NCBI GenBank assembly: GCA_002371295.1
Contig: DFGZ01000200.1
Location: 1 to 30,787, forward strand
DNA length: 30,787 nt
From: Oribacterium sp. UBA3737
GTDB taxonomy: Bacteria > Bacillota_A > Clostridia > Lachnospirales > Lachnospiraceae
Direction of reading: 5' to 3'
The notes under the pieces were generated by a model. It saw only the letters and a list, made by a program, of their open reading frames with translations. It did not search any database and was not told the DNA's origin. This document shows positions 4,738 through 30,684 of the stretch, piece after piece. Made by a program: the position numbers and the translations under genes. Every line of letters starts with the position of its first letter. The first letter of the stretch is position 1.

Positions 4738-4763
4738 ATAAAATCCTTCATAAATCGTATTTG

Positions 4764-4877: not shown

Positions 4878-4943
4878 ATTCTCTGATCACAAATGTGAAA
4901 AACTCATGGAAACGCCGATTAAACCGGCTATTCCATCAGTGGA

Positions 4944-6884
4944 CTATATTTCTATGATCTTCAGTCTGAAGCAGAAGCCTGCGCCGTGAGGCTCCACTCT
5001 GTATGCTGTGATGGTGCCGCCATGGGCTTCAATAATGGATTTTGAAAGGCTGAGTCCCAGACCCAGACTTCTTCCCGCATCCACAACCCGATTATGGCCG
5101 GTGTAAAATGGATCAAAAATATGAGACATAACATTAAGAGCTATCCCGGGTCCGTTATCCTCTATCCGTACGACCACATACTCTCCATCCCTTTCATCGG
5201 AGACAACTATGGTTGATCCTGTCTGTGAGTATTTGATGGCATTATTTACAATATTTACCACCACCTGCATGATGAGTCTGGTGTCCATCTCCGCCATGAG
5301 GAACTCATGATCAAAGTTCTTTATGATCCTGTGCTCACTCACGTGTCTGTCCACGTGCTTCAGAGCCTCCTCCAGCACGTCCTCCACCACCTCCTGAGTT
5401 TTCATCAGCTTCACACCCTCATTAAGTTTACTGATGGACAAAAGATTTTCAACCATATTTATCAGCCACATGGAATCATCGTAAATATCCATGTAGATCC
5501 TGTGACGTTCATCCCCTGAAAGTTCACTCTCACTGTTCATAAGGGTGTAGGCATCTCCGGATATGGAGGTAAGCGGGGTCCGGATGTCATGGGAGATAGA
5601 TCTCAGAAGATTTGCCCTGAAACGCTCACTTTCCGCAAGTATCATCGCCTTTTCACGCTCTATGGCGATCCTGCGGTTTTCCATACGGATACTGCATTCT
5701 CCTATGATGGACAGAAGTATGGTCTGCTCCACCTCTGTAAATTCTCTTTCATCCATATCTATGGCTATGACACCGTAAACCGCCGCTCCCGTCATCATGG
5801 CAAGAAACTGAAAGGAGGAATCGGAAAAACGGCCGGTGAATGCCCCGGCCTTTGTCCTGTTTTTGTATACCCATTCAGCAATTTCCACGTCACTGTCTGC
5901 CATGACAGAGGACTCGGTTTTATTCTTAACATGGTGGTATACCGGTGGCTTCAGCCTGTTATCCTCGATGGAAAAGAGGACAATGTCCCTTCCTAAAAGC
6001 TGTATGAGCTGATTCACCGTGATGGAAAAGAACTCATCCTCTGTTTCCGCCTTTTCCAGAAGCTTTGTGGCATTCAGGAGAACTCTGGCCTGGTAAGCAT
6101 TGTCCGTAGCATTTTTCATGCTTTCCTTGAGCTGGGCGGAAACGGTTCCTGTCAGCACAGCTGCAAAGATACTCACCACATAGGTCATCATGTAGGAGGG
6201 GTCATATACCCTCAGGGTGAACCTGGGCTCGATGAACAGGAAGTTGAAAAGCAGTATGTACATGACCGCCGCCATAACGCCGAATCTTTTCTCAGAAGTC
6301 AGTATGGAGGTTACCAGTACCGCCATGATGTACACCGTGATGATGTTGGCATTGCTGAAGCTGGAATGATAAAAAAGGAAGGATACCAGAGTAGCCGCTG
6401 ACATTATGAAAAGTAGCTTCAATGTGTCGGAAACTATATATCTCTGTTTTCTGCCTTGATCCCTGATACCGGAGGGTCTCAGCTCACTCCTCTCATCCGG
6501 TATGATGTGAATGTCTATGTCGGGAAGCAGCTTCGTCAGCTTTTTGGAAACCGTCTGCCTCCTGTCCTGACCGCTCATACCTATATAAAGATCGGTGATG
6601 TCATGGGCACCGGCATACTCGGCTATGGCCATGATCACATCATCTCCGTATATCTCCTTGAAGACAGCTCCCAGGGATTCTGAAAGCTCTATGTTCTCCT
6701 TGAGAGCAGTGCTGACCGCCCCTTCCCTGGTTCTTACGTAGAGTGCAGTCAGACTGCTGCCGGTAAGAGTAGCGTTACGGGCTGCGATCCTTATGACTCT
6801 CGGATTACTTGGCGAACCGGAAATGCATACCAAAATATTTGATTTTTTCGATAAGCTGCTTTGCTTTATTGTATCCTCTTCCAT
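4944..6884 (-). CDS. KdpD-like sensor histidine kinase lacking the N-terminal KdpD domain
   Basis: A 646-residue membrane kinase. Residues 17-128 form a UspA-like domain; about 155-250 hold the clustered membrane helices of the KdpD transmembrane region (DUF4118); 270-395 resemble a GAF domain; His432 in SISHDIRTPL is the phosphorylation site of the HisKA domain; the ATPase domain has NIVNNAIKYS, DNGPGIA and GLGLSLSKSI. Classical KdpD is near 900 residues; the roughly 210-residue N-terminal KdpD domain is absent. Its start overlaps the preceding small gene by 80 bases, implying coupling. With the KdpE-like regulator next to it and trkH/trkA upstream, it probably senses K+ limitation or turgor. 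The 2-kb frame is intact, so the short form looks like a real variant, not decay. Confidence 0.85.
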   Translation of the reverse strand: MEEDTIKQSSLSKKSNILVCISGSPSNPRVIRIAARNATLTGSSLTALYVRTREGAVSTALKENIELSESLGAVFKEIYGDDVIMAIAEYAGAHDITDLYIGMSGQDRRQTVSKKLTKLLPDIDIHIIPDERSELRPSGIRDQGRKQRYIVSDTLKLLFIMSAATLVSFLFYHSSFSNANIITVYIMAVLVTSILTSEKRFGVMAAVMYILLFNFLFIEPRFTLRVYDPSYMMTYVVSIFAAVLTGTVSAQLKESMKNATDNAYQARVLLNATKLLEKAETEDEFFSITVNQLIQLLGRDIVLFSIEDNRLKPPVYHHVKNKTESSVMADSDVEIAEWVYKNRTKAGAFTGRFSDSSFQFLAMMTGAAVYGVIAIDMDEREFTEVEQTILLSIIGECSIRMENRRIAIEREKAMILAESERFRANLLRSISHDIRTPLTSISGDAYTLMNSESELSGDERHRIYMDIYDDSMWLINMVENLLSISKLNEGVKLMKTQEVVEDVLEEALKHVDRHVSEHRIIKNFDHEFLMAEMDTRLIMQVVVNIVNNAIKYSQTGSTIVVSDERDGEYVVVRIEDNGPGIALNVMSHIFDPFYTGHNRVVDAGRSLGLGLSLSKSIIEAHGGTITAYRVEPHGAGFCFRLKIIEI

Positions 6885-7041
6885 GACTGTAATTGGTTTC
6901 TTCTGCTGAGTCCGGCGCTTCTGAAACCTCAGATGCCTGATCTTCTATGATACCGAACTCTTTTTCTATCTGACGGGTTATTATCCTATATAGTACAGCA
7001 TTAAGGAGTATAAATCCAAAAAATAAATACCAATCATTCAT
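6805..7041 (-). CDS. Small single-helix membrane protein of the K+ operon
   Basis: A 78-residue protein with one hydrophobic segment at about residues 5-21 followed by an acidic stretch (EKEFGIIEDQASEVSE) and a basic C-terminus. A strong AAGGAGG lies before the ATG, and the gene begins 15 bases after trkA and ends 80 bases inside the kinase gene, so it is probably translated. I do not recognise the family; it is not obviously KdpF, which is about 30 residues. It may be an accessory or regulatory subunit of the transporter or the kinase, an idea that rests on position only. Confidence 0.6.
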   Translation of the reverse strand: MNDWYLFFGFILLNAVLYRIITRQIEKEFGIIEDQASEVSEAPDSAEETNYSHGRGYNKAKQLIEKIKYFGMHFRFAK

Positions 7042-7056
7042 ATCTTCCTCCTTTGC

Positions 7057-7713
7057 TTAAAGCTTAAATACCTTTCTGATTCTGCTGACAGGTCCCAGAA
7101 CCAAAACACTGCCGCTCTCATGCAGTACAGAGTCGGGAGCTATATCCATGTCCAGATTTTTTTCCGAACTCCCATTCCGGATTCCCAAAACATTCAACCC
7201 GAACTGATTTCTGATGTTCAGTTCACCTACTGTTTTTCCCTGCCAGTCCTTGGGGATGGTAACCTCAACTATGGCATATTCCCCGGTCACGCCTATGTAA
7301 TTCATGATCTGTTCAGAGCTGAATCTGAGAGCCGTCCAGTCCGCCATCTCTCTTTCAGGGAAAACCACATGGTCAGCACCGTTTCGTAAAAGGAATTTCT
7401 CCTCCTTCTCTCCGGAAGCCCTGGCCACCACATATCTCGCTCCCAGATCCTTGAGAAGTGATGTTATCTCAAGAGACGCAAGGAAATCATCTCCGATGGC
7501 AACTATACAAAGGTCAAAATTGCCTACACCTATACTGCTCAGAAAATTCTGACTGGTACAGTCGCCTATGAGTGCTCTGGTGGCAAAGGGTATAACCGCT
7601 GACACCTTTTCCTCATTCCGATCTACCGCCATAACCTGCATTCCCAGCTCCTTAAGCTTTTTTGTGGTGAAATAACCGAATCTTCCCAAACCTATGATCA
7701 AAACGTTTTTCAT
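7057..7713 (-). CDS. ktrA: TrkA/KtrA-type potassium-uptake regulatory subunit
   Basis: A 218-residue cytoplasmic protein with one RCK unit: an N-terminal Rossmann domain starting KNVLIIGLGRFG (nucleotide-binding GxGxxG) with Asp at the end of the second strand (AVDRNEEK), then a C-terminal RCK_C domain from about residue 140. The size matches KtrA of Bacillus, not the double-length TrkA of enterobacteria. It gates the TrkH/KtrB channel in response to adenine nucleotides. An ATG at 7773 overlaps the trkH stop (TGATG) and would add 20 residues, but those fall in a dispersed repeat; the ATG at 7713 is preceded by AGGAG and matches the family start. Confidence 0.88.
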   Translation of the reverse strand: MKNVLIIGLGRFGYFTTKKLKELGMQVMAVDRNEEKVSAVIPFATRALIGDCTSQNFLSSIGVGNFDLCIVAIGDDFLASLEITSLLKDLGARYVVARASGEKEEKFLLRNGADHVVFPEREMADWTALRFSSEQIMNYIGVTGEYAIVEVTIPKDWQGKTVGELNIRNQFGLNVLGIRNGSSEKNLDMDIAPDSVLHESGSVLVLGPVSRIRKVFKL

Positions 7714-7748
7714 TTCCTGTCTTCTCCTGTCTTCTCCTGTCAGATTTA

Positions 7749-7766
7749 TATTATGATGTGAGTGTT
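7749..7766 (+). repeat. Dispersed AGTGTCA-type motif between trkH and trkA
   Basis: ATATTATGATGTGAGTGTT on the plus strand, which is antisense to the operon, lying 36 bases before the preferred trkA start. In the mRNA it reads AACACTCACATCATAATAT. It is one of the best matches to the consensus left half but has lost the final CA. Confidence 0.45.
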
Positions 7767-7772
7767 CCTGCA

Positions 7773-9113
7773 TCAGCCTATCATGATGCTCTCCTTTGGA
7801 TACTGCACCGCCGGCTTTACCTTATAGAAATCCGGTGCTGCATAGAATATGGTCAGGGCACCTACTCTTCCGAAATACATAAAGCCCATTAGTATGAGCT
7901 TGGATAATGTACCCAGTGTGGGTGTAATACCTCGCGTAAGTCCTACGGTACCGAGAGCCGACGCACACTCAAAGGCTGTATCCAGAAGCGGCAGTCCCTC
8001 CACACCGCTTATCACCAGGGCTCCGAAAAACAGGAGAACCACATACAGCATCATAAGTGTGATTGCGTGAAATATGGCTGATATCTCCAGTGTTCTGTCT
8101 GAGGTTGTGATATTGTCATTTCCTCTCAGGGAATGAAACATGGTTACCACCAGAACCGCAAAGGTAGTTGTCTTCATGCCTCCGGCTGTGGATCCGGGAG
8201 ATCCGCCTATCAGCATGAGGCATATCATGAGGATCATGCTGCCCTCACTCATGGCTGTCAGATCTGCAGTGTTGAATCCGGCTGTTCTGGTGGTCACAGA
8301 CTGAAATAATGACTTAAGTATCCTGATGTGCCAGGCATCTCCGCTGAAATCAACGAAGAAGAAATACACAGCCGGAAGCACTATGAGTATCAGCGAGGTG
8401 ATCAGAACCATCTTTGTCTGGAGCCGGAAGTGTCGGAAATCTCCCTTCTTCTCCAGTATGTCCGACTGTATACCGAAGCCTATACCTCCGACGATAATCA
8501 GCAGCATGATGACGAGATTTATAAGTGGCACCCCTGCAAACCCGGTAAGAGACTGATATGGGGTGCTATAGGTTCCGGAGAGGTCAAATCCGGCATTACA
8601 AAAAGCGGATACCGCATAGAAAACTGAATTTCCCACGCTTTTCCCGAAGCTGAATCTCCCGAACATCACAGGAAACAGCAGTACCGCTCCCACAAGCTCT
8701 GTGATAAGTGTTGCCTTAAGCATGAAGAGTGTGAATCTGACTATCCCTCCCAGCTGTGAAGCGCCTATGGCGTCCTGCATGGTGAGCCTTTGGAAAAGAT
8801 TTATCTTCCTGCCTGCCAGAAGCTGAAACCATATGCTGACGGTTATGACCCCGAGTCCTCCTATCTGTATGAGGATGAGGATCACAGCCTTTCCAAAAAG
8901 CGTCCAGTGTGTTGCCGTATCATGCACCACAAGTCCCGTCACGCATACAGCGGAAACAGCTGTAAAAAGCGCGTCAAGAAAAGAAGTATCACTGCCGTAT
9001 GAGGCAAAGGGAAGTGACAGCAGCACACCACCTAAAAATATAACCAGCATGAAACTCATCAGTATCAGCTGAAAGCTGGAAACATTGAACCTGAAAAATT
9101 TTCCGGAAATCAT
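7773..9113 (-). CDS. ktrB: TrkH/KtrB-family potassium transporter
   Basis: A 446-residue integral membrane K+ translocating subunit made of four M1-P-M2 repeats. The four pore loops are visible as AVSAVCVTGLVVHDT, AVSAFCNAGFDL, SVTTRTAGFNTADL and CASALGTVGLTRG, each with the selectivity-filter glycine. The length matches KtrB (about 445). It would import K+, driven by the membrane potential and possibly Na+, with the RCK subunit encoded next. The apparent frame opens with TTG at 9125, but the ATG at 9113 has GGAGCAAGGT directly before it and is preferred. First gene of a five-gene K+ operon, divergent from bcp. Confidence 0.9.
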   Translation of the reverse strand: MISGKFFRFNVSSFQLILMSFMLVIFLGGVLLSLPFASYGSDTSFLDALFTAVSAVCVTGLVVHDTATHWTLFGKAVILILIQIGGLGVITVSIWFQLLAGRKINLFQRLTMQDAIGASQLGGIVRFTLFMLKATLITELVGAVLLFPVMFGRFSFGKSVGNSVFYAVSAFCNAGFDLSGTYSTPYQSLTGFAGVPLINLVIMLLIIVGGIGFGIQSDILEKKGDFRHFRLQTKMVLITSLILIVLPAVYFFFVDFSGDAWHIRILKSLFQSVTTRTAGFNTADLTAMSEGSMILMICLMLIGGSPGSTAGGMKTTTFAVLVVTMFHSLRGNDNITTSDRTLEISAIFHAITLMMLYVVLLFFGALVISGVEGLPLLDTAFECASALGTVGLTRGITPTLGTLSKLILMGFMYFGRVGALTIFYAAPDFYKVKPAVQYPKESIMIG

Positions 9114-9132
9114 ACCTTGCTCCAATCATAAT

Positions 9133-9184
9133 GAAGTAATTTACTTCTGTGATCTCAGTATGACAGAAATCCTGTTAAAACAGG
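9133..9184. promoter_or_regulatory. Two perfect dyads in the trkH-bcp divergent intergenic region
   Basis: GAAGTAA-T-TTACTTC at 9133-9147 and CCTGTT-AA-AACAGG at 9171-9184 are both perfect palindromes, lying between the divergent trkH and bcp starts. Their size and position fit operators for dimeric repressors. I could not assign the core promoters confidently in this region. Confidence 0.4.
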
Positions 9185-9240
9185 GTGAAGATATAAAACA
9201 GAGTTGTAAAGATTGTGTTAAGATGAGAACATAATAATAC

Positions 9241-9260
9241 GATATAAGTATCATGATATC
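9241..9260 (+). repeat. Dispersed motif variant before bcp
   Basis: GATATAAGTATCATGATATC is a variant of the dispersed motif (AAGTATCA in place of AAGTGTCA) that has become nearly self-palindromic, GATAT pairing with ATATC. It ends five bases before the AAGGAGG site of bcp. Confidence 0.4.
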
Positions 9261-9278
9261 ACATAAGGAGGTTTTATC

Positions 9279-9734
9279 ATGCTTTCAGTAGGAACTAAAG
9301 CTCCGGAGTTTGAACTGCCGGATCAGGACGGTGTCGTACATTCGTTAAAGGATTACAGCGGCAAAAAGGTTATACTTTATTTTTATCCCAAGGATAATAC
9401 TTCCGGTTGTACAAAACAGGCCTGCGGTTTTTCAGACCGCTACCCCCAGTTCACTGAGAAGGGTGCTGTTGTACTTGGTATAAGCAAAGATACTGTCGCA
9501 TCCCACAAGCGTTTTGCCGAGAAATACGGACTTGTCTTCACACTTCTTGCAGATCCGGAAAGGCAGGTCATTGAAGCCTATGATGTATGGAAAGAAAAGA
9601 AGAACTATGGCAAAGTATCCATGGGTGTTGTACGCACAACATATCTCATTGATGAGGATGGTATCATCATAAGGGCAAACGATAAAGTGAAGGCTGCCGA
9701 TGATGCAGAAAAGATGCTGGGAGAGCTCTCATGA
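9279..9734 (+). CDS. bcp: Bcp-type thiol peroxidase (peroxiredoxin)
   Basis: A 151-residue cytoplasmic peroxiredoxin of the BCP/PrxQ group. The peroxidatic Cys44 lies in YPKDNTSGCTKQACGF and the resolving Cys49 is five residues later, the classic arrangement for atypical two-cysteine Bcp. Length and the later VRTTYLIDEDG segment agree with the family. It reduces hydroperoxides using thioredoxin. AAGGAGG at 9265-9271 fixes the start. It is the only sizeable plus-strand gene in the first two thirds of the window. The 164 bases between its stop and tRNA-Gly hold no clear terminator. Confidence 0.93.
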   Translation: MLSVGTKAPEFELPDQDGVVHSLKDYSGKKVILYFYPKDNTSGCTKQACGFSDRYPQFTEKGAVVLGISKDTVASHKRFAEKYGLVFTLLADPERQVIEAYDVWKEKKNYGKVSMGVVRTTYLIDEDGIIIRANDKVKAADDAEKMLGELS

Positions 9735-13090: not shown

Positions 13091-16000
13091 TTACCGGCCT
13101 GTTATTCTTTCAACCCAAACACCGTTTTCATCTACCATGAATCCATCCGGTGTCTTTACGCCTCTTAGCATATCCCCCTGTTCTTTTTCAAAGAAGTACC
13201 ACTTACCGTCTATAGACTTCCATCCGGTTGCCATACGTCCCATCCAGCCATCTGAATCAGGTATGAGATAGTAAGCCTTATCGTTCCAGGTAATCCATCC
13301 GGTAGACATGCCTCCTTCTGCACCAAAGAAATACCAGCTTCTGACTCCGTTGTACTCAAGGTTCAACCACTCATTCCTTGCCACAGTTCCATCAGACTTA
13401 ATGTACACCCAGCGCCCATTTATCAATGTCCATGTACCTCCGATATCGCTAAGCTCCGAAGTATTGGATTCAGGCTTTTCTGTCATCTGTCTTACAGCAC
13501 CAAGAACCATGCTATCCGAATTCGCTATGCCCGATCCGGAACCGCCGGCTCCGCTGGTGGTTTTACTGCTGCTTACACTGTCGTTTCCGCTGTCATCGCT
13601 GTCATCACTGCTGTCGTTGCTGCTGTTTCTGTTTCCGCTTCCGCTATTGTTTCCGCCGTCACCACTGCTGTCCTTGCTGCTGTTTTCACTGCTGTTTATG
13701 TTTCCGCTGTCATCATCGTTATCATCATAGTTGTCATTGTGGACTGCCTGCTTCTTCGGAATAGTCTCAGTCTTTATATGACTTGAATCACGAAGACAGG
13801 TATAAGTCCTTATCCCTGTGCTTGTGAAGGTAGGCTCCTTAGTCACTACTCCCTTATCCCACTTATGTCCAAGGGGACTTAATATAACTGATTTTCTGTC
13901 AGTTATCTCTACACTTCCGACTGCATCCTCAAACCACTTGTCACAGCTATCATCATCGCATCTGTAGTAAGCTATGTTTCCTTCTGTCTCACATCCTGGC
14001 TCCGTCCTTTCAACAAGAACCAGCTCATGCCTATGCTTCTCTGTCTTTTTCCACTGTGCGTACAGCTTTAAATCTCCACTTGGGCTTATCTCATCACAGT
14101 CCTTATATCCGTCACCGGAACCATCATTTTTGGTGTTCCATCCGCTGAAGCTGTGATCCTCATTTGTGAATGTATGGGCACGGAGTTTTACAGAAGTGCC
14201 CTCAGTAACTTTCTGATCCTCCATGGATCCCTTTCCACCATTTGGATCATAGCTGATGGTCCATGTGTCAGGCTGCTTTTCCGTAGGAATAACAGTTACT
14301 GTAAGAGTATAATTTTCATAATTCAGGGCATTCTCCACCGAAACAGTAAAGGTCTTTGTGTCATCGAAGGACCACTCTTCTTCTGTCCAACTCTTAACCG
14401 CTGTAAGCATAAGACCATCTTCTGTGCTTACAGTAAAGAACTCATCGTTTTCATTTGTGACATCTCCATATACTGCACCATCCGGAAGTTTATAACTAAC
14501 CCCGGCAGTCTTTCCCTCCTTTGCTTCCAGATAAACCGATGTCTTCAACAGATCACCCGGGATGGTTCCCTGCGGTTTTATGTTCGCAGTAGTTTCTGTC
14601 TGCTGCCCTGATTCCGAAAGCACATAGTTTTCGGAGTCATCTCCACCAAGAGTCAGATCACTGATGGTGACAGGCTTGTCTTTTCCGACGTTTTCATCAT
14701 CAAACTTACCTTTTGCAGTGACCAGAAGCTTATCCCCTTCACAGATACCATCAAAACTCACTTCATTGTATGTCAGTTCTGCATCAGTATCGCCATCATA
14801 GTTCTTATCCTTAGCTTTGATTCCGCTTACCGTAATCTCCTTTTTGGTGATTTCAGCATACACATCCTCAGGCTGTAAAAGCGTATAGTTCTCTGCAGAT
14901 TTCCCCGAAAGAACATATCCGCTGAAAGTAACCTTTTTATTTTTCCCGGCCTTTACATCCTCGAAGCTTGCCTTGCCTCCGGTGATGCTCAGATCATCAC
15001 TTTCAAGCTTTCCATCAAGGACAGCTGTACCGGTGATCACCGCATCTGTATTTCTGTTATACTCCTTGTCAGATACGGACAGTCCCGTGATTCTGATCTG
15101 CTTCTTTTTTGCTGTGAGTTCAAGCTCAGCCTCACCTCCTGTTGCATCTGATACATAGGATACCGTGATGGTGACAGGCTCTTCACTTGCCTTCAGTACA
15201 GTAATGCTTGCTTTATCCTGATCAGCCTCATCCGCTGTGACCTTCACTGCAGTTTCATCACTGCACTTCCATGTCCATTTACCGTTTGTTCCGTTTTTTT
15301 CTGCCTTTGCAGTAAGAGTGAATACATCTCCGTAAGTCTTCTCAAGCTTTGTTCCTTCGCCAATGCTTACACCGGCATCAGGCAGGTTATCAAACTCTCC
15401 CTTAACCTCAACATCCTGTGCAGGCATCACGAAGCTGAAAATGCCGTTGCTTTCTGTGACTTCCGGTTCAAGCTTTTTCCCTTCCTTATCGTAGCAGCTT
15501 ACAGCTTTAAGCAGTCTTCCCGAAAAAGCTGCTGCCTTGACAGAAACTGTGGTTCCTTCTTTACAGTAGTATCCGGCATCATCGCCGCTCTCTATGTAGA
15601 AGCTTCCTTTTGGATTTTCCCCATTATCAACATCGGAAACATCAAGGTTCTCCCCGGGAATGACACGATATATTCTTGAATAAATGTTTACTTTTACCTT
15701 ATTTTCTGCTCCTACTCCCGGAAGACCGGTTTCGTTTCCATCATAGAAAAAGCAGTTATCAACAGTTGCGCGGTCATTTATTCCTGCTATAGCTCCCGCT
15801 TTTTTCTCTTTACCATTAGTTACCTTTGCGTTTATAACCAGACAGTTTTCCACACTGCCCAAAAAAATATCTCCAGCCACACTTCCCGCATATTCTCCAT
15901 TTCCACGTGAAGAACATATTAAACTCGGGTTGAGAAGTCTCACATTTTGGATAGCTTTACCACTAAACTGTCCAAAAAGACCTATAGGATAACTGGGATT

Positions 16001-18460
16001 ATCATTAGCGACAACCAGACCACTGATAGTATGATTTCCGCCATCATAAGTACCCTTAAAATGCTTGGCTCCGGTTCCCCCGTACCCTATCGGTGTAAAG
16101 TTCTCGCCTTCAAGATCGATATCCTGTGTCTGTAGAAAGGTTTTTCCGCTTCCGTTAAGATTTGTGTCTCCATAGGTTTCCTGAGAATTGATATAAGCAG
16201 AAAGCCCGCGCAGATCATCTGCAGTCTCAATGAGATAATTACCCTTCTGATCCTTTTTGAAAAAGTGACCCCCGAGTGTTTCTCCCTGTTCATCGACTTC
16301 ATAATTAAGGGTGACAGAGCCTCCGTAATTACCGATTCCCTGCACAGTAAGTGAATACACGCCTTCTTTTGCTTCAGTTTCATCCTCCGTCCAGGTGAGA
16401 GTATAGTCTGTTCCCTCAGTTAAAGACTCACCACAGAATTTCACCTCCGGTTTATGCTTATTACGAACGGGAGCCTCACTTAACGGATAGGTATTTTCCA
16501 AGCCATTGACAGTACATACCCCATAATAGGTCTTATGATTAGAAGTATCACTATCCGGAGTATCTGATAGGATAGCATACACGCCCTCGGCAGGAATCGT
16601 TTCATAAACCCTGATGCCCTGTTCCGTACCAAAGGCAGTAACATAGTAAGCTCGGTCAAATTCATTGTTGCCATTACGATTGAATGTGCAGCTGTTATTC
16701 TCACCTGCATCAAGTTTTGAAGGAGCAAACATACAGTTGGTATAGCTGATATTTCCTATGTTCCATCCTACAAATCCGCCGTTACTGTGTGCACTTCCCG
16801 AAAATTCACCCTTGAAATCACAATTTGTAAAAGTGAGCTTGCCGCTGTCATTAACCGCTACAAAACCACCGTGTGTACCATCTCCACTGATGGATCCGTT
16901 TATGGAAACTGTACTGTGACAGTTAGTGATATTTGTATCTCCGCTGGTATGTGCAGCGATACTTGCACCGTATTTTGCTGAGGTATCTACGCTTCCGCTC
17001 ACTGTCAGATCCCTGATAGTGGCACCATCGAGATAAAGAAACGGAGCGCAGTTGTCTGTAGATGCACTAAGCTCTATATTCAGTGTATTGCCGCTGCCGA
17101 GAAAGGTTCCCTTGAACTTGTTGTCAGCGGTTCCCACACTCTCAGTGATGTTTATTTCGGTATCAAGTTTAACATACTGATTCTTATAGTCAGTTCCTGT
17201 GTTCACATGAGAAGCAAAAATTTTCCAGGCAGCATCACTGTCGATGATATAGGGTTCATTTTGGGTCCCTTTTCCTCTCAGTTCGCTGATAACTTCAAAG
17301 GACTGACTGATGCTTCCGATATAGTCTCCTTTTCCGGTAACGGTCACAGTATAGCTTCCCAAAGATGTTATGGCTGTTACTTTATCTCCATTCGGACCTA
17401 TTACCGTTACTGTATAGTCCGTGCCCTCTGTCAAAGCTTCGTCATCAAAAGTCACACCGCATACAGGCAGTGCCATGGATGCGCCTTTCATCTCATAGGC
17501 AGCCTTTAAATCTGTTGCAGCTGATCCTGGATAGTAGCAGGTATCCAGATCAAAAAACTGTATCTTTTTATATAATTTATCTGCCGCTACTTCTTCATAC
17601 CCGTAGACATATGCTCCCTGCTTTGGCTTCTCGTCTCCCCAATACCTCGTATAAGCTCGGGTCAGATTCGCCCATGTGTAAGCAAAAGTATCGAACCTTA
17701 TACCGGAACCCCTCTTAACATCAGCAGGCGCAAAAAGACAGTCAGTGATGTTTATGGTACCGCCGGAAACATTATCACCTACAAAGCCTCCACCGGCCAC
17801 AGAACTGACTGTCGAAGATTTCAGCGTGCCATGGAAGGCACAGTTCTCTATCGTCGTACTGCCGGAATCCACTCTTCCCACAAGACCGCCTATACGATCT
17901 TTTCCTATTATGTTTGAACCGACTTCACAGTTTTGAATGGTAACCTGACCTGAGGCGCAGCCTATGATGCCTCCGGAATGTGTCTTTCCGACTTTGATTT
18001 CTCCGATGACCTTAAGATTTTTTATGGTTGCCCCGTCCACATACTTGAAAGGGGCAGCATATTGAGCTCCGTCCTGATAAAAATTAATCTCCACCGTATG
18101 ATGGTTACCGTCAAAGGTTCCTTTAAATGGTTGATCCTTATCACGACCAATTAAACGAATATCATAGTCATATACAGGCGAAGTAACTTTGATATCCTTC
18201 ATGAGCTTGTAGTGCTTATCACAGTATGGCTCATAAGTACCGGAGTTATGTGTTGCCAGATGTAATGCTAAAAACTCCCAATCATCAAAGCTGTAAATCA
18301 GGTATGGATCATTCTCTGTTCCGCTTCCCTGAAGCTTTTCGACAGCAGCCCGGGATATCATGACATTCCCCGGAACCGGCACTGTGCCAAGTATCATGGC
18401 CAGTATCAAAATGATCGTAATTATTCCTTTCAGTGATACCCTGATTTCTTTATTCTGCAT
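13091..18460 (-). CDS. Large secreted modular surface protein with GLUG-type, YDG-type and cell-wall-binding repeats
   Basis: A 1789-residue protein with a signal peptide (about 1-37). Three related beta-helix regions follow, beginning near residues 41, 397 and 740, with GLUG-like repeats (GGLVGRVDSGSTTIENC) and the shared form GTENDPYLI / GTQNEPYII; each is followed by a small strand-rich unit ending YTVTVTGKGDYIG or similar. Then come Ig-like and YDG-type repeats (KEYNRNTDAVITG, KNYDGDTDAELTY), an InlB B-repeat-like unit (YDPNGGKGSMEDQ), two cysteine-containing repeats, a Ser/Asn/Asp/Gly-rich linker at about 1600-1670, and a C-terminal choline-binding-type repeat block (GWKSIDGKWYFF). No LPXTG motif is seen, so attachment is probably non-covalent via the C-terminal repeats. 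Likely an adhesin or surface-layer-associated protein; the ligand is unknown. Confidence 0.85.
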   Translation of the reverse strand: MQNKEIRVSLKGIITIILILAMILGTVPVPGNVMISRAAVEKLQGSGTENDPYLIYSFDDWEFLALHLATHNSGTYEPYCDKHYKLMKDIKVTSPVYDYDIRLIGRDKDQPFKGTFDGNHHTVEINFYQDGAQYAAPFKYVDGATIKNLKVIGEIKVGKTHSGGIIGCASGQVTIQNCEVGSNIIGKDRIGGLVGRVDSGSTTIENCAFHGTLKSSTVSSVAGGGFVGDNVSGGTINITDCLFAPADVKRGSGIRFDTFAYTWANLTRAYTRYWGDEKPKQGAYVYGYEEVAADKLYKKIQFFDLDTCYYPGSAATDLKAAYEMKGASMALPVCGVTFDDEALTEGTDYTVTVIGPNGDKVTAITSLGSYTVTVTGKGDYIGSISQSFEVISELRGKGTQNEPYIIDSDAAWKIFASHVNTGTDYKNQYVKLDTEINITESVGTADNKFKGTFLGSGNTLNIELSASTDNCAPFLYLDGATIRDLTVSGSVDTSAKYGASIAAHTSGDTNITNCHSTVSINGSISGDGTHGGFVAVNDSGKLTFTNCDFKGEFSGSAHSNGGFVGWNIGNISYTNCMFAPSKLDAGENNSCTFNRNGNNEFDRAYYVTAFGTEQGIRVYETIPAEGVYAILSDTPDSDTSNHKTYYGVCTVNGLENTYPLSEAPVRNKHKPEVKFCGESLTEGTDYTLTWTEDETEAKEGVYSLTVQGIGNYGGSVTLNYEVDEQGETLGGHFFKKDQKGNYLIETADDLRGLSAYINSQETYGDTNLNGSGKTFLQTQDIDLEGENFTPIGYGGTGAKHFKGTYDGGNHTISGLVVANDNPSYPIGLFGQFSGKAIQNVRLLNPSLICSSRGNGEYAGSVAGDIFLGSVENCLVINAKVTNGKEKKAGAIAGINDRATVDNCFFYDGNETGLPGVGAENKVKVNIYSRIYRVIPGENLDVSDVDNGENPKGSFYIESGDDAGYYCKEGTTVSVKAAAFSGRLLKAVSCYDKEGKKLEPEVTESNGIFSFVMPAQDVEVKGEFDNLPDAGVSIGEGTKLEKTYGDVFTLTAKAEKNGTNGKWTWKCSDETAVKVTADEADQDKASITVLKASEEPVTITVSYVSDATGGEAELELTAKKKQIRITGLSVSDKEYNRNTDAVITGTAVLDGKLESDDLSITGGKASFEDVKAGKNKKVTFSGYVLSGKSAENYTLLQPEDVYAEITKKEITVSGIKAKDKNYDGDTDAELTYNEVSFDGICEGDKLLVTAKGKFDDENVGKDKPVTISDLTLGGDDSENYVLSESGQQTETTANIKPQGTIPGDLLKTSVYLEAKEGKTAGVSYKLPDGAVYGDVTNENDEFFTVSTEDGLMLTAVKSWTEEEWSFDDTKTFTVSVENALNYENYTLTVTVIPTEKQPDTWTISYDPNGGKGSMEDQKVTEGTSVKLRAHTFTNEDHSFSGWNTKNDGSGDGYKDCDEISPSGDLKLYAQWKKTEKHRHELVLVERTEPGCETEGNIAYYRCDDDSCDKWFEDAVGSVEITDRKSVILSPLGHKWDKGVVTKEPTFTSTGIRTYTCLRDSSHIKTETIPKKQAVHNDNYDDNDDDSGNINSSENSSKDSSGDGGNNSGSGNRNSSNDSSDDSDDSGNDSVSSSKTTSGAGGSGSGIANSDSMVLGAVRQMTEKPESNTSELSDIGGTWTLINGRWVYIKSDGTVARNEWLNLEYNGVRSWYFFGAEGGMSTGWITWNDKAYYLIPDSDGWMGRMATGWKSIDGKWYFFEKEQGDMLRGVKTPDGFMVDENGVWVERITGR

Positions 18461-20444: not shown

Positions 20445-21066
20445 TTAATTCCCTCCAACTACAACTGCCATGACCGTATCCTTCTTTACTGCAGCAGCCT
20501 CTGATGAAACAGTCTCTGATTCCAATGTCTCTGCTGACGCTGCACCATCTTCACCGTAAAGCTCCGAAGCCGTAAGTTTTTCTTTCCTACCACTACAGTG
20601 AGACAGAAAGGAACAGCTATGGCAACCAGCATAGCCAGTGCGAAAATTCCCATATATCTGGTCTGTATGGAAAGGATTCCCGGGATACCGCCTACACCTA
20701 TCGAATTAGCCATTACTCCGCTTCCTACAGAGATCACTGCCGCTATGCAGGAACCTGCCATGGCACTGAAGAAGGGGAAGCCGTACTTAAGGTTTACACC
20801 GAACATGGCCGGCTCTGTTACTCCAAGATAGCAGGAGATACAAGCAGGTATGGATACTTCCTGGGTCTTTGCATTTTTCTTCTGAAGGTAGATCATTCCG
20901 AGAACCGCTGAGCCCTGAGCGATGTTTGAAAGGGCGATCATTGGCCAGAGAATGGTACCTCCGAAGTCAGCCACAAGCTGAGTGTCGATAGCATTGGTCA
21001 TATGATGAAGTCCGGTGATAACAAGCGGCGCATAGAGGAAACCGAAGACACCCCTTATACCTATTT
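20445..21066 (-). pseudogene. treB: treB remnant: C-terminal part of a trehalose PTS EIIC, 5'-deleted and frameshifted
   Basis: The frame encodes FLYAPLVITGLHHMTNAIDTQL, LWPMIALSNIAQGSAVLG, ACISCYLGVTEPAMFGVNLKYGFPF and GGIPGILSIQ, typical of the C-terminal half of glucose-superfamily PTS EIIC of the trehalose type. The EIIB domain and the first half of EIIC (roughly 270 residues) are absent: the sequence joins directly onto the stop codon of kamA near 21061. At an A-tract (about 20577-20585) the frame shifts; with one base added it reads KLTASELYGEDGAASAE onward and its stop (20445-20447) abuts the treC ATG. The double damage means no functional permease. The expected EIIA-like end is also missing or very short. 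Confidence 0.85.
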
Positions 21067-22173
21067 CCGGCTGCAAAGCTCCGTATCAAGCCACGTGGTT
21101 TCGTCGTCTATATCAGCACTGAAGATTCTTGACCTGTCCTCCGGATACTTGTTCTGATGGAACTTGAAAAGCATTTTACCTTCCTCAGATTCCCCCAGTA
21201 TCTCTATCTTTCCAAGAGGGTGGCTCATGGCATATCTCACACTTTTTCCTATACCGTTCTGCAGAGCCTTTGCCTCATCAACTATCCTTACTCCCTGTCG
21301 CAGCGGAACCTGAAAATGTCCCTTTACGCCGGTAACCGGACGACACTGGAAGATATAATAGGGCACTACTTCCATTCTGGTGAGTCCCCTGAGAAGTTCA
21401 CCAAGAACCTCAGGATCATCATTGACCCCGCGAAGAAGAACCGTCTGATTTCTTACCTGTATGCCCCGGCACTGCAGAGCCTTAACAGCTCGGATGGATT
21501 CTTCAGTGATTTCCCGTGGATGGTTAAACTGAGTAACAACATATAAAGGCTTAACCCCCGCATACTCAGACAAAAGTGAAAGAAGCTCTTCATCCTCATA
21601 TATCCTCTTTGGAAAAGTCACAGGTACTCTGGAGCCGAATCTGATAAAATCAAGATTTTTATTTGCCGAAAACTCTTTCAGGTATCGGGCAATGATCGCA
21701 TTGGGATTCATCAGTGCATCTCCGCCGGTAATGAGTACATTTGTGATTTCCGGATGAGCATGTACATATTCCGCCGCTTCATCCACCTTCTTGTTAAGTT
21801 CAGCATCCGATAGTCCCACAAGACGCTTCCGAAAACAATGCCTACAATACATGGCACAGACATTGGTGGACAGGATCAATGCCGTCTGCCTGTACTTATG
21901 CTGCACTCCCTCCCACTTTGTGTTTTCACTTTCACCGCTGGTGTCGAAGCTTCCCTCCTGCAAAAGTTCTTCTTCTGACGGAATACACATCTTAGCAATG
22001 GGATCTTCAGGATCCTTTAAGTCGATGAGTGAAAAATAGTAGGGTGTGATCATCATAGGAAAACGTGAAATGATACTCCAGTATTTGTCACGATCTTCAT
22101 CAGGAAGCTTAAGCGCATCACACAGTTGGTCAGCTGTCGTAATACAGTTTTTCAATTCTTTCTGCCATTCCAT
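21061..22173 (-). CDS. KamA-family radical SAM protein (lysine 2,3-aminomutase-like)
   Basis: A 370-residue radical SAM enzyme. The [4Fe-4S] ligands are Cys in CAMYCRHC at about residue 103-111, followed by the KamA signature ITGGDALM, and RFGSRVPVTFP, VVTQFNHPREIT and VRNQTVLLRGVND, which line the PLP and SAM sites. KamA enzymes move the alpha-amino group of lysine to the beta carbon; family members also act on other amino acids or on elongation factor P lysine. This copy is shorter than classical clostridial LAM (about 416) and lacks a clear C-terminal zinc-binding Cys cluster, so the exact substrate is open. AAGGGG before ATG at 22173 fixes the start; the GTG 15 bases upstream is less likely. 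It heads the unit kamA-treB'-treC. The stop codon lies at the deletion junction with treB, so its last residues may be altered. Confidence 0.82.
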   Translation of the reverse strand: MEWQKELKNCITTADQLCDALKLPDEDRDKYWSIISRFPMMITPYYFSLIDLKDPEDPIAKMCIPSEEELLQEGSFDTSGESENTKWEGVQHKYRQTALILSTNVCAMYCRHCFRKRLVGLSDAELNKKVDEAAEYVHAHPEITNVLITGGDALMNPNAIIARYLKEFSANKNLDFIRFGSRVPVTFPKRIYEDEELLSLLSEYAGVKPLYVVTQFNHPREITEESIRAVKALQCRGIQVRNQTVLLRGVNDDPEVLGELLRGLTRMEVVPYYIFQCRPVTGVKGHFQVPLRQGVRIVDEAKALQNGIGKSVRYAMSHPLGKIEILGESEEGKMLFKFHQNKYPEDRSRIFSADIDDETTWLDTELCSRK

Positions 22174-22274
22174 CTCATACCCCTTCACTTTATTAAATTT
22201 TCAGTCTTTGTCACGAACCATAAGCTTTATGTAAACTATTAAAGTTACGTCAAAAAGCTTAATATTATATATAA

Positions 22275-25590: not shown

Positions 25591-27369
25591 TCAGATTCTT
25601 ATGGTCAGAAAATTTAGACCAAGAACATTTTGATAGTTCACTTCACTGGCGATTTTAAAAATCATCCGTATACCGATATATCTGGTTGGATCTTCAAGGT
25701 CGTTAATATCGTTTCTTGCAGCGGGATCAAATGCCAGACAATCGTCTTTTATAGTCAGGATCACATCATTGTTCCTATGGATAGCCTTGACAATTACAGT
25801 GTGCTTCCGGTCATCCATGGAAAAGCCGTGTGTAACTACATTGCCAGCCATCTCTTCCAGGGACAGACCGGCAAGCATTGCTCTTTTTCGGTCGATTCCC
25901 CTTTCTTCACAAAAATGCTGAACATTTTTAGCTACTTCAACAACATGTTCCATATTTTTAACTTCAATTACTACGACCGCATCATCAGGGACACCAAAAT
26001 CTTCAGGGATCACCATTAGCTCCCCGATATTGCGAGGTATGCGCCGATTGATCACAAATGCATATAAGAAGATGATGAGGGTAGTGATCACACCATTAAG
26101 AACATTTGCTATGTATATTGCGTTGATTCCGAATCTTCCGATAAGAAGAGGGGCAGTGATGGCAACTCCCAGGACACCATCAAAGACCGCCAGAAGATTA
26201 AGCAGCACATGCTTATCCGTGGCCTGGGCATAGGCGATAAAGTGCATACAGATGATTGATAACGGCATGCAAAGCGGCAGGATTCTGAACCCCCAGGCGG
26301 TCATCATGTAAACAGGTTCAACAGGATTCTGGTAGAAGATTCTGGTAAATGGAATACTCAGAGAAATAATTCCAAGGCTTATGATGCTTTGGAGCGCAAG
26401 ATAACCTGTGAACATAAAATGCATGACGCTCTTAAGTGAATTTCTGTCTTCTTCACCCACACCAATATTGATAAGGAGTCTGGAAACTGACAGCATTCCC
26501 ACCGGAACTGCCCAGAATAGCCCCATAAGATTTCCGGCTGCAGCTAATGCCGAAAGCCCTGCACTTCCGACATAGGTATCAATAAGTCCATTTACAAGAA
26601 AACCTCGTACTGTCCCGTAGATGGTTGGCAATACACCCGGAAGTCCTTTTGTGATTATTCTGATGCTCTTCTTTAAATCAATTTTTTTCGGCACAAAACG
26701 AATATAGGATCTGCCGAGTAAAAAGTACATTGCCTCAATTACACAAAAAATCCATGTGCCCAGTGATGAAGCAAGAGCAAGTCCGAAAGCCCCTAAAGGA
26801 ATAACGAGGACGAAAATATATTCAAAGAAAAGATTAACTAAAACCCAGGAAATACTTCCCAGGACGATAAACTTCTCCCGGTTTTCGAATGAAAGAAAAA
26901 CTGACAGCTGATTACTAAGGAGCAATGGTAGAACTCCTATGGCCTGCCCCAAAAAATAATTATTCAGAGCAACTCTGACCATTGAGTCTCTTGTAAAAAT
27001 CCCGGTCAGGTCGTTAAGACTCATGAAAAGAAGTACTGCAGTAATCACAAAAGAAGAAATTACAGTAAGAATGATATCCATTGAAAAGACTTCCGCAACC
27101 TCATCCCTGCTGTTTTGTCCAATGTATTTTCCGCATTCTATCCCTGCACCACCGCTCAGAATCGCGCCCACAGCCGTAATCATCATACTGATGGGACCGA
27201 AAAGCCCGATGGCACTGGTTACCTCTATTCCCACATAATTTGCTGAAAAAAAGCTTGATACAATAGAATTGAATGTGCCCAGTGACAAAATAAGGACATG
27301 GACCGGCAAGAGTCGCAGCATAAGCTTCGATATCATTTTGTAATTACTGTCAGAATTTCTATTATTCAT
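25591..27369 (-). CDS. MATE-family transporter fused to an RsbW-like ATPase domain
   Basis: A 592-residue protein in two parts. Residues 1 to about 450 are a 12-helix MATE-type (MatE, multidrug/oligosaccharidyl-lipid superfamily) transporter with the usual internal duplication. Residues 465-592 are a soluble GHKL ATPase domain of the RsbW/HATPase_c_2 type: N-box EEMAGNVVTHG (505-515), G1 box IKDDCLAFDP (540-549), then RYIGIRMI. Such domains normally sit in anti-sigma factor kinases or phosphatase-linked switches. No His phosphorylation domain is present. The gene begins one base after the stop of the sugar-binding lipoprotein, so they are translationally coupled. The coding frame is continuous with no sign of a fused assembly error. 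Function is unknown. Confidence 0.85.
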   Translation of the reverse strand: MNNRNSDSNYKMISKLMLRLLPVHVLILSLGTFNSIVSSFFSANYVGIEVTSAIGLFGPISMMITAVGAILSGGAGIECGKYIGQNSRDEVAEVFSMDIILTVISSFVITAVLLFMSLNDLTGIFTRDSMVRVALNNYFLGQAIGVLPLLLSNQLSVFLSFENREKFIVLGSISWVLVNLFFEYIFVLVIPLGAFGLALASSLGTWIFCVIEAMYFLLGRSYIRFVPKKIDLKKSIRIITKGLPGVLPTIYGTVRGFLVNGLIDTYVGSAGLSALAAAGNLMGLFWAVPVGMLSVSRLLINIGVGEEDRNSLKSVMHFMFTGYLALQSIISLGIISLSIPFTRIFYQNPVEPVYMMTAWGFRILPLCMPLSIICMHFIAYAQATDKHVLLNLLAVFDGVLGVAITAPLLIGRFGINAIYIANVLNGVITTLIIFLYAFVINRRIPRNIGELMVIPEDFGVPDDAVVVIEVKNMEHVVEVAKNVQHFCEERGIDRKRAMLAGLSLEEMAGNVVTHGFSMDDRKHTVIVKAIHRNNDVILTIKDDCLAFDPAARNDINDLEDPTRYIGIRMIFKIASEVNYQNVLGLNFLTIRI

Positions 27370-28900: not shown

Positions 28901-28992
28901 CGACAATTATATTATTGATAGCATTTTTAAGTCAAACATCAGCCAGCTGCAATATATTATGAGAATGAACTTTTTGATCGATTGCACAAAAG

Positions 28993-29024
28993 AAAAAGGC
29001 GCCTCGGAGTTTCCTCCAAGACGC
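28993..29024 (-). terminator. Terminator of the NifX-FKBP gene
   Basis: On the minus strand GCGTCTTGGAG pairs with CTCCGAGGCGC around GAAA and is followed by CTTTTTCTTTT, 35 bases past the stop codon. Confidence 0.85.
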
Positions 29025-29059
29025 ACTTGCCTTTATGATCCTTTAAATGCACTCAAGGA

Positions 29060-29995
29060 TTATTCCGCAACTTCCAGAAGGGTAATGTCGAAGTTCAGTG
29101 CTTTTCCCGCAAGTCTGTGGTTACCGTCAAAGGTGACTGACTCCTCTGTCTTTGCGGTTACAGTAACCGGAAAACGCATTCCCATATCATTCATGAGCAT
29201 GACATTCTGACCTATTTCAAGATTCTCTGCACCCGGAATGTCTGAAATCTTTGATACCAGAACCTTCTTCTCATTGTACTCACCATAGGCCTCAGCCGGC
29301 TCGATATGGATGCTTCTGCTCTCTCCGACTTCCATATCAACAACTGTCCGGTCAAATCCCGGGATCATCATTCCCACACCCGCTATAAAGGATAACGGCT
29401 CGTTGCGGTCATATGATGAATCGAACTTGCTTCCGTCATCAAGAGTTCCTGTGTAGTGAACACTTACGGACTTACCTGAATTCTTGCCCTCATAAATGAC
29501 ACTCATTTCATGGCTTCCACAGCCGCCGCAACCACCTCCGCAGCCGCCACAGCCCTCTTCGCAATCATCTCCACAGCCGCCACAGCTTTCTTCTTCATCA
29601 TGGTGGTGTCCGCAACCGCCTCCGCAGCCGCCCTCCTCGTGATGATGTCCTTCATGGTGATGATCATGATGATCACAGTTCACTCCCTGAGATACCAGTT
29701 CACCGGCAAGGAACTTTTCAACTGCTTCATCTGTATTACCGGATGCTCCCGATATCACTTCGATGCCCATTTCCTTAAGAGCAGCCTGTGCACCGCCCCC
29801 AAGTCCGCCGCAGATCAGTTTATCAACCCCTGCATCCTTGAGAACTCCTGCAAGTGCCTCATGTCCCGCTGTACCTGATCCCAGAATTTCGCTGGAAACA
29901 ACCTTTCCATTTTCTACTGTATAAAGCTTAAACTCCTTTGTCTTTCCAAAGTGCTGGAATACCTGACCACCCTCATAAGTTACTGCTAACTTCAT
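29060..29995 (-). CDS. Fusion: NifX/NifB-like domain, Cys/His-rich metal-binding linker, SlyD-type FKBP isomerase
   Basis: A 311-residue cytoplasmic protein in three parts. Residues 1-105 resemble the dinitrogenase iron-molybdenum cofactor domain (MKLAVTYEGGQVFQHFGKTKEFKLY and ICGGLGGGAQAALKEMGIEV). Residues 107-162 hold 10 Cys and 12 His in repeats such as HHDHHHEGHHHEE, GCGGGCGHHH and CGGCGDDCEE. Residues 163-311 form an FKBP-type peptidyl-prolyl isomerase with the SlyD insert-in-flap region and its final HRLAGKALNFDITLLEV. SlyD normally carries a His/Cys-rich tail that binds nickel; here the metal-rich part is moved to the middle and joined to a NifX domain. AGGAG precedes the ATG at 29995; an upstream in-frame ATG would add 15 unlikely residues. 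It looks like a metal storage, delivery or folding factor; the metal is unknown. Confidence 0.85.
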   Translation of the reverse strand: MKLAVTYEGGQVFQHFGKTKEFKLYTVENGKVVSSEILGSGTAGHEALAGVLKDAGVDKLICGGLGGGAQAALKEMGIEVISGASGNTDEAVEKFLAGELVSQGVNCDHHDHHHEGHHHEEGGCGGGCGHHHDEEESCGGCGDDCEEGCGGCGGGCGGCGSHEMSVIYEGKNSGKSVSVHYTGTLDDGSKFDSSYDRNEPLSFIAGVGMMIPGFDRTVVDMEVGESRSIHIEPAEAYGEYNEKKVLVSKISDIPGAENLEIGQNVMLMNDMGMRFPVTVTAKTEESVTFDGNHRLAGKALNFDITLLEVAE

Positions 29996-30235
29996 TTCTT
30001 TTCTCCTGTTTATCGACACTGTCTCAGCCGTAAATCTCACTACCGGTGCAGATCTATCGGCTTTGTAAACTCATGTTTCTGTAACATGATACATTAATTA
30101 AAAGCTGCATACATGATATTTCCACTCATGCATACAGCCTTTAAAGTATAAAATATATGCCGGTAATTTAAAAGTGAAATCTCTCCTAGATTAACTCCGA
30201 CCGGGTTTGCTTGATGAAGGCACCTCTTGCACACG

Positions 30236-30302: not shown

Positions 30303-30316
30303 AGCGCGAGACGGGG
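30303..30316 (-). pseudogene. tRNA-Gly 3'-end remnant
   Basis: On the minus strand CCCCGTCTCGCGCT equals the last 14 bases of the tRNA-Gly genes, followed five bases later by the matching terminator. The rest of the tRNA is replaced by the structured repeat at 30316-30355. Confidence 0.6.
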
Positions 30317-30355
30317 GCGCTACATGCCCTTTGGCATGTGCTTAGCGCCGACCGA
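30316..30355 (+). repeat. Structured repeat, copy 2 (GGCGCT/AGCGCC hairpin)
   Basis: Outer stem GGCGCT (30316-30321) pairs with AGCGCC (30344-30349); inner stem ACATGCC (30322-30328) pairs with GGCATGT (30333-30339); then GCTT and the tail GACCGA as in copy 1 at 117-157. It is immediately followed by GCCGGAGGCGAG and the second direct repeat. Confidence 0.55.
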
Positions 30356-30366
30356 GCCGGAGGCGA

Positions 30367-30387
30367 GACGAACCGAAGGTTCGATCC
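30367..30387 (+). repeat. Direct repeat, copy 2
   Basis: Identical to 30236-30256. After it both copies continue to a short variable stretch and then AACGCGAAAA, which abuts a terminator stem, so the repeated unit is about 34 bases and lies directly downstream of each terminator on the minus strand. Confidence 0.6.
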
Positions 30388-30398
30388 TCGTTGAACGC

Positions 30399-30430
30399 GA
30401 AAAGAGCCTCAGGTTATTCCTGAGGCTCTT
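30399..30430 (-). terminator. Terminator of the tRNA cluster
   Basis: On the minus strand AAGAGCCTCAGG pairs with CCTGAGGCTCTT around AATAA and is followed by a short TT run, five bases after tRNA-Gly. Confidence 0.75.
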
Positions 30431-30434
30431 GAGA

Positions 30435-30506
30435 AGCGCGAGACGGGGATCGAACCCGCGATCTTCGCCTTGGCAAGGCGACGTAGTACCACTCTACTAC
30501 TCGCGC
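30435..30506 (-). tRNA. tRNA-Gly (anticodon GCC)
   Basis: A 72-base tRNA identical to the copy at 9899-9970, anticodon loop TTGCCAA. Last member of a minus-strand cluster fMet-Phe-Gly. The 105 bases between it and tRNA-Phe hold no gene. Confidence 0.95.
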
Positions 30507-30611
30507 GCTATTAATGTTCGTTCAACTTTCATTTCTGTGAAGAACGAAAACATTATACAAAAGATAATGAAAACCAGTGTGAATGTTATCGCTGATATTC
30601 AATATCTTGAA

Positions 30612-30684
30612 TGCCCAGAACCGGAATCGAACCAGTGACACGAGGATTTTCAGTCCTCTGCTCTACCAACGGAGCTATCTGGGC
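30612..30684 (-). tRNA. tRNA-Phe (anticodon GAA)
   Basis: A 73-base tRNA. Acceptor GCCCAGA pairs with TCTGGGC, discriminator A; the anticodon loop CTGAAAA gives GAA; the T arm is TGGTTCGATTCCGGT (one wobble). All arms pair. CCA is not encoded. Confidence 0.93.

Follow-up and report, generated by a model that had tools for sequence, protein, structure and literature searches.

Among described systems, those closest to the protein studied here are SlyD, MrpORP and IssA. SlyD has been tied to nickel and, recently, to Fe-S biogenesis (PMC10653786). A C-terminal His/Cys tail is frequent, and not universal, among SlyDs (PMC11198818), the insert-in-flap is required for productive client contact, and nickel stops the isomerase of H. 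pylori SlyD even in a protein without the tail (PMC7840056). In respect to Fe-S biogenesis, contacts of SlyD with IscS, IscU, SufS or MisS, MisU are reported for E. coli and H. pylori, and loss of slyD lowers MisSU and aconitase activity in H. pylori; no defect in IscR or NsrR maturation was seen in E. coli without SlyD, and IscU needs proline switches to which, as the authors note, no isomerase has been assigned (PMC10653786). In MrpORP of Desulfovibrio, where an Mrp/NBP35 ATPase is joined to a Di-Nase domain, the related domain is reported to bind a [3Fe-4S] cluster, with CXHFGHCE and CDH as proposed ligand motifs, and the cluster in the Di-Nase-type domain is described as not efficiently transferable (PMC6345978).

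We have analysed a protein in which a NifX-type domain and a SlyD domain share one chain, encoded in a stretch of 30,787 nucleotides from Oribacterium sp. UBA3737 (contig DFGZ01000200.1), here called the window. No description of a NifX-SlyD fusion was found in the open-access literature, as represented by titles and the beginnings of abstracts; databases already list both domains, and JGI gives the protein a composite name.

Domain make-up of the fusion and its gene

The gene and its signals, all on the minus strand, are as follows.

29060..29995, minus strand: NifX-linker-SlyD coding sequence, 311 aa, ATG start
29678..29995, minus strand: NifX-type domain (Nitro_FeMo-Co, PF02579), residues 1–106, from Pfam and fold matches 2yx6 and 1o13
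29501..29677, minus strand: Cys/His/Gly-rich linker, residues 107–165, from composition, conservation and low pLDDT
29063..29500, minus strand: SlyD-type FKBP with insert-in-flap, residues 166–311, without Cys, from Pfam, Foldseek and phmmer
30003..30007, minus strand: ribosome-binding site AGGAG, 7 bases 5' of the ATG, read from the sequence
28999..29024, minus strand: Rho-independent terminator-like hairpin and T run, 35 bases 3' of the stop codon

A GTG located 45 bases 5' of the ATG gives an alternative reading of 326 aa. The initial annotation described a single-gene unit with its own terminator. The latter is borne out by the hairpin and T run, the region 28985–29065 folding far more strongly than its shuffled versions (z = −5.92), although a terminator consensus scan gave one site versus 1.7 expected; the former holds for the most part, as the fusion gene stands mostly singly, with a same-strand ORF at a distance of at most 60 bases upstream in 16 of 65 loci and downstream in 14 of 65. 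Metal riboswitches reaching the Rfam threshold were found neither in the window nor in the 7 of 80 fusion loci that were scanned, and a search for a shared motif in 67 upstream stretches brought out Shine-Dalgarno-like words alone as prominent.

The N-terminal ~105 residues had been read as a NifX-like domain and the C-terminal part as a full FKBP/SlyD domain with insert-in-flap, and the profile and structure searches agree with both assignments. Nitro_FeMo-Co (PF02579) matches residues 9–96 with 74.0 bits (cut-off 26.3) and FKBP_C matches residues 172–244 with 81.3 bits (cut-off 21.1); with phmmer, residues 173–309 align end to end with the FKBP12-IF(SlyD) chimera 5i7p, insert-in-flap included. 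The top ranks of a Foldseek search against solved structures are held by the FKBP-IF chimera and SlyD/SlpA (5i7p, 4odm, 3luo and others), with TM values by target length of 0.80 for 5i7p and 0.66–0.79 for Thermus SlyD, and are followed by the NifX folds PH0822 (2yx6, TM up to 0.86) and TM1816 (1o13, 0.82), again by target length. The best NCBIfam profile for residues 1–100 is that of MrpORP, matched in its C-terminal part with 75.4 bits, below the whole-protein cut-off of 450; of NifX, NafY and NifB proper, nifB alone matches in NCBIfam, with 18.7 bits against a cut-off of 343.65. In an AlphaFold2 model obtained with 121 homologues the mean pLDDT is 80.5, both domains being mostly above 90, and residues 108–162 are predicted to be disordered (pLDDT<50); the pTM of 0.45 means that the relative placement of the NifX and SlyD domains is not predicted. 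The isomerase-site residues, placed via the phmmer alignment to the FKBP12 part of 5i7p, are Y181, F191, D192, R197, I211, Y237 and F302, and all are invariant in the 121 aligned rows; we take their FKBP12 counterparts to be Y26, F36, D37, R42, I56, Y82 and F99, respectively. The chain ends at residue 311, directly behind the FKBP core, and has no C-terminal His/Cys tail.

Conservation was assessed on these 121 aligned rows, which comprise the window protein and the best 120 of 7315 homologues and were not chosen by the CxHH pattern. H15, H45, C62, C107, H109 and H110 are invariant in all 121 fusions. The NifX part of the window protein (residues 1–106) has a single Cys (C62) and two His (H15 and H45), all of them within this invariant set, and the linker opens with the invariant C107-x-H109-H110. 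Counting on the translation agrees with the 10 Cys and 12 His in 56 residues noted initially, for residues 107–162; the totals shift with the boundary, being 10 Cys and 11 His for 106–161, and 10 Cys and 12 His for 107–165. Across the 121 rows the linker contains 15.6% Cys and 14.6% His, versus 1.0% and 2.5% in the rest of the protein, and pooled linkers have 27.5% Gly and 24% Asp plus Glu; that of the window protein (residues 107–165) is acidic, with a pI of 4.91. The start of the linker resembles the tail at the C-terminus of NifX relatives that are free-standing or linked to DUF134. The motifs HFG and CDHH are kept in the fusion, which has F13 and T19 where CXHFGHCE has Cys; F13 is invariant in the 121 rows, and no Cys was seen at position 19 in the 32 rows inspected.

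Distribution and relatives of the fusion

Homologue scoring covered the 7996 candidates with most shared words, and both domains are present in each of the best 120 of the 7315 that scored. A second survey covered 120 genomes of the family-level group of Oribacterium sp. P6A1, 25 of which carry the fusion, five of these being counted from two-piece matches within one open frame. An assembly error or misjoin, a possibility raised with the initial annotation, is ruled out by the best 120 homologues together with the recurrence of the join in these 25 genomes: the two domains are genuinely joined, and related anaerobes commonly have the same arrangement. Genera named on fusion contigs include Butyrivibrio, Lachnospira, Oribacterium, Roseburia, Blautia, Coprococcus and Anaerovibrio, and in a genus-level set the fusion is present in 7 of 17 genomes. 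In the nearest genome, that of Oribacterium sp. P6A1, the fusion is 94% identical in protein and 86% in DNA. A tRNA stretch lies 0.3 kb upstream of the fusion in the window and ~2.6 kb away in P6A1; the tRNA-bearing stretch (30303–30684) is 97% identical in P6A1, versus 86% for the adjoining fusion gene.

A free-standing SlyD without a tail was found in 4 of the 120 genomes (G020, G030, G049 and G116), and none of the 120 has both this form and the fusion, considering matches of at least 100 bits; the SlyD counts exclude long frames with weak FKBP matches (~20 bits), which probably encode trigger factor. In the sampled group, SlyD thus usually takes the NifX-linker-SlyD form. Separate NifX domains (at least 100 bits) occur in 45 of the 120 genomes, and in the 16 such loci that were read each protein ends in a Cys/His tail, some being preceded by DUF134. 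The presence of other NifX-tail genes bears no relation to that of the fusion (10/25 fusion genomes vs 35/95 others).

A tree was made for each of the two domains, both of them quick trees on few columns. In the NifX tree all but one of the 27 non-fused rows fall into a single group that contains no fusion (SH-aLRT 97); in the SlyD (FKBP) tree the free-standing rows are scattered among the fusions and call for at least four changes, a pattern compatible with repeated loss of the NifX part, although few forks are resolved. Since SlyD exists without NifX and linker, among fusions in this tree, the SlyD part can manage without the carrier. Three rows (P0122, P0134 and P0137) were taken out before the trees were made and P0123, of similar length, was kept; some rows labelled as standing alone may be cut DUF134 fusions. 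The columns of C107, H109 and H110 are invariant in 136 non-fused rows as well, because these rows were cut by the CxHH pattern.

Gene neighbourhood and co-occurrence with metalloenzymes

No nitrogenase, hydrogenase or urease genes had been noticed near the fusion gene, and none emerged among ten other window proteins that were scanned or, by eye, among the remaining window ORFs. Other genes of the window include a radical-SAM gene (20486–22188, minus strand) that runs straight into a PTS EIIC piece covering only profile positions 200–317 of 319; by eye, this piece ends in unrelated-looking residues, as in a cut-down permease, and the radical-SAM part has what we take to be a lysine-2,3-aminomutase look. 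There are also a surface-protein-like ORF of 1789 aa with repeats of YDG, Listeria-Bacteroides and choline-binding type (13091–18460, minus strand) and a MATE-type transporter with a C-terminal histidine-kinase-like ATPase domain, HATPase_c_2 (25591–27369, minus strand).

Neighbourhoods were compared in 68 of 80 fusion loci, 12 being dropped for want of a picked ORF that corresponds to the query; there a longer ORF overlapping it in another frame or strand had probably been chosen. Across these 68 loci, no family of neighbours keeps coming back at the same position. Families were named from one to three Pfam-scanned members each, among 567 neighbour ORFs. The commonest is that of plain ABC ATPases (15/68 loci), followed by an aldo-keto-reductase family (7/68, one scanned member having a 4Fe-4S domain), a FIST/histidine-kinase family (4/68), and MATE and branched-chain amino-acid permease families (3/68 each). 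A ZIP metal permease is found within three genes of the fusion in 3/68 loci (three scanned), an iron-type alcohol dehydrogenase (Fe-ADH) family in 3/68 (one scanned) and a ferritin-like gene in 2/68 (one scanned). Since ABC ATPases are commoner than these metal-related neighbours, the latter may be there by chance, and in the lack of a fixed neighbour there is no firm tie of the fusion to iron or Fe-S genes; ZIP neighbours suit zinc as much as iron. At one locus, L041, the genes at 4559–9549 are in order those of a nitroreductase, a ZIP permease, the NifX-SlyD fusion, an aldo-keto reductase on the opposite strand, a DUF3793 protein and a flavodoxin, a row that to our eye resembles an iron or redox set; here the ZIP gene ends 58 bases 5' of the fusion, and the DUF3793 and flavodoxin genes are two and three genes after it.

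Around non-fused NifX genes, with and without tail (40 of 41 loci), rubredoxin, rubrerythrin or 4Fe-4S genes are found in 4/40 loci. Another family, represented by a single scanned protein that combines a pyridine-nucleotide oxidoreductase with a rhodanese domain, is found in 6/40, CODH in 3/40 and, by eye, a GAPDH-like family in 3/40; these counts are a hint and not a rate, since L120–L123 were picked for a known nearby CODH gene and supply all three CODH and three of the six oxidoreductase cases, and since L100 and L139 are the same place and L089 and L096 near copies. At L120 (6307–6771, plus strand) a free-standing NifX-tail protein has HFGHCE and CSHH, between the motifs of MrpORP and those of the fusion; relative to its gene, a separate DUF134 gene is found three genes earlier and a CODH gene two genes later. 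Frames of 557–594 aa at ~0.6–3.5 kb from non-fused NifX genes match the CODH profile weakly, with 33–35 bits (G136:C48, G137:C74, G032:C82), and we assume that they are probably hybrid cluster proteins.

The initial annotation hinted at nickel delivery to hydrogenase or urease, for which co-occurrence gives no backing. Four markers were counted, with genomes tallied by eye and with Ni-glyoxalase and other nickel enzymes lying outside the set: HypA (33 of the 34 genomes over the cut-off, leaving out G123, which exceeds it only through summed pieces), urease (>160 bits, 9 of 16 over the cut-off), CODH (24 of 24) and LarA-like proteins (at least 100 bits, 26 of 35). Any of them is present in 15/25 fusion genomes versus 50/95 others (p = 0.65), with no enrichment in a statistic that ignores kinship and includes genomes that may be incomplete. 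Taken individually, HypA (9/25 vs 24/95), urease (3/25 vs 6/95), CODH (4/25 vs 20/95) and LarA-like proteins (7/25 vs 19/95) all have p>0.3, and ten of the 25 fusion genomes lack all four markers as counted. Within the genus-level set, HypA and urease exceed the cut-off in 0/17 genomes and CODH in one, a genome without the fusion, so that the seven fusion-bearing genomes have none of the three over cut-off. LarA exceeds the cut-off in 4/17, reaching at least 100 bits in one; among the fusion-bearing genomes it is found in three of seven, two with ~25 bits over 50-odd positions and G139 with 136 bits. NifH (at least 240 bits, 34 genomes) is likewise not enriched (7/25 vs 27/95), and in G001 its match is at only 1.3e-7. 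The nickel reading of the fusion is weakened by these results.

Possible role of the fusion and comparison with known systems

With a NifX fold and its Cys/His tail on one chain with SlyD, the protein looks like a carrier that is tied to a foldase. That a single protein serves as carrier of a metal or cluster and also refolds its client, as proposed from the outset, is in our judgement the best reading, and we tentatively favour, at somewhat less than an even chance, its broad form: a soluble metallochaperone-foldase of anaerobes, in which iron, some Fe-S species or a different soft metal sits beside a proline isomerase and which serves apo-metalloproteins generally. The cargo, whether iron, a small Fe-S species or some other soft metal, would be bound jointly by the NifX-type domain, through H15, H45, C62 and the C107-x-H109-H110 edge, and by the flexible Cys/His linker, which would be the metal tail of NifX itself turned into a tether. 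The SlyD domain would grip unfolded or apo metalloproteins via the insert-in-flap and isomerise their prolines, and the tethered metal would be handed over, or held near, during folding of the client. Metal binding may slow the isomerase of the fusion, as nickel does in SlyD. The clients would probably be broad, iron or Fe-S proteins and assembly factors and not one dedicated nickel enzyme. The identity of the metal, its hand-over and the clients are what we infer here; nickel or zinc suits the His/Cys linker equally well as iron. In favour of this reading we count, besides the domain make-up and the six invariant Cys/His, the conserved isomerase site, the MrpORP profile match over residues 1–100, the contacts of SlyD with Fe-S assembly proteins (PMC10653786) and the scattered iron or Fe-S neighbours. 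Against it stand the two missing [3Fe-4S] Cys ligands, the lack of a fixed neighbour, the occurrence of SlyD without the carrier, the lack of an IscR or NsrR defect in E. coli without SlyD (PMC10653786) and the inefficient transfer of the MrpORP cluster (PMC6345978). A narrower proposal, in which a carrier of Fe-S (or a thioferrate-like species) and a proline isomerase in one chain make a dedicated Fe-S-assembly prolyl isomerase of anaerobes, with delivery coupled to a cis-trans switch by the Cys/His tether, appears to us unlikely.

The composition of the linker, together with the stop that nickel puts on H. pylori SlyD even without its tail (PMC7840056), would also suit a metal buffer and metal-gated chaperone, in which the linker soaks up Ni, Zn, Co or Cu, the bound metal shuts the isomerase, and NifX is a sensing or dimerising part with no cluster delivery. 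That a tail-less free-standing SlyD exists makes folding and metal handling separable, and the ZIP permease within three genes in 3/68 loci, 58 bases before the fusion in L041, points the same way. However, such a buffer leaves the invariant H15 and C62 in the NifX fold and the constant attachment of NifX unexplained; no metal-efflux family was present among the twenty Pfam-scanned neighbour proteins of the 567 neighbour ORFs, and neither the window nor the seven loci scanned gave a metal riboswitch at the Rfam threshold. We consider this account possible and rather doubtful.

Less can be said for a classical SlyD nickel metallochaperone serving the maturation of hydrogenase, urease, CODH or lactate racemase, which we regard as very improbable: it would be in line with the SlyD homology, the Cys/His region, the HypA of 9/25 fusion genomes and the few non-fused NifX genes near a CODH gene, but meets p>0.3 for every one of the four markers, the ten fusion genomes without any of them and the absence over cut-off of HypA, urease and CODH from all seven fusion-bearing genomes of the nearest genus. 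Finally, NifX might do no more than target or dimerise the protein, with the linker as a flexible Gly-rich spacer whose Cys/His are incidental or engaged in disulfide or redox sensing. Length and order of the linker do vary across the 121 rows (32–88 residues, with 0–6 CxxC, median 2); yet Cys plus His make up ~30% of pooled linkers, each row retains at least 5 Cys and at least 3 His (ranges 5–15, median 9, and 3–19, median 8), the NifX and SlyD parts of the window protein hold just one and zero Cys, and C107, H109 and H110 are constant in 121/121, so that a mere spacer seems most unlikely.

That SlyD is joined in nature to a member of a domain family known to carry Fe-S species directs attention to iron or Fe-S chemistry in this large group of anaerobes, and the finding would gain in interest if an Fe-S species were found on the fusion. 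The fusion also offers a single-gene test object in Roseburia, Blautia, Coprococcus, Butyrivibrio and Oribacterium.

In respect to known systems, the NifX-tail proteins of this bacterial group, whether free-standing or linked to DUF134, share with the fusion a NifX part that is 47–60% identical (16 loci), the ICGG and CxHH motifs and the Cys/His tail; their chain stops behind that tail, whereas the fusion continues. IssA of Pyrococcus furiosus, a thioferrate storage protein of the IPR003731 fold, similarly carries an unstructured Gly-rich tail behind this domain; that tail is cationic and aromatic with a pI of 10.7 (PMC5524996), unlike the acidic, Gly/Cys/His/Glu-rich linker that leads into SlyD. 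MrpORP is the best NCBIfam profile, shares the HFG and CDH motifs and has the same domain also fused to a protein-handling partner; however, Pfam and NCBIfam scans found no P-loop ATPase in the fusion, which has the Cys/His linker and SlyD instead, and two of the three proposed Cys ligands of the [3Fe-4S] cluster are absent from it. With the SlyD of E. coli, H. pylori and T. thermophilus the fusion shares the FKBP with insert-in-flap (~173–309), the isomerase-site residues and a disordered Cys/His-rich region, which precedes the FKBP and sits on a NifX-type domain, whereas the tail of SlyD follows the FKBP. The fusion is thus a variant of the SlyD kind of metallochaperone, in which the Cys/His metal stretch can reach SlyD from the opposite end of the protein.
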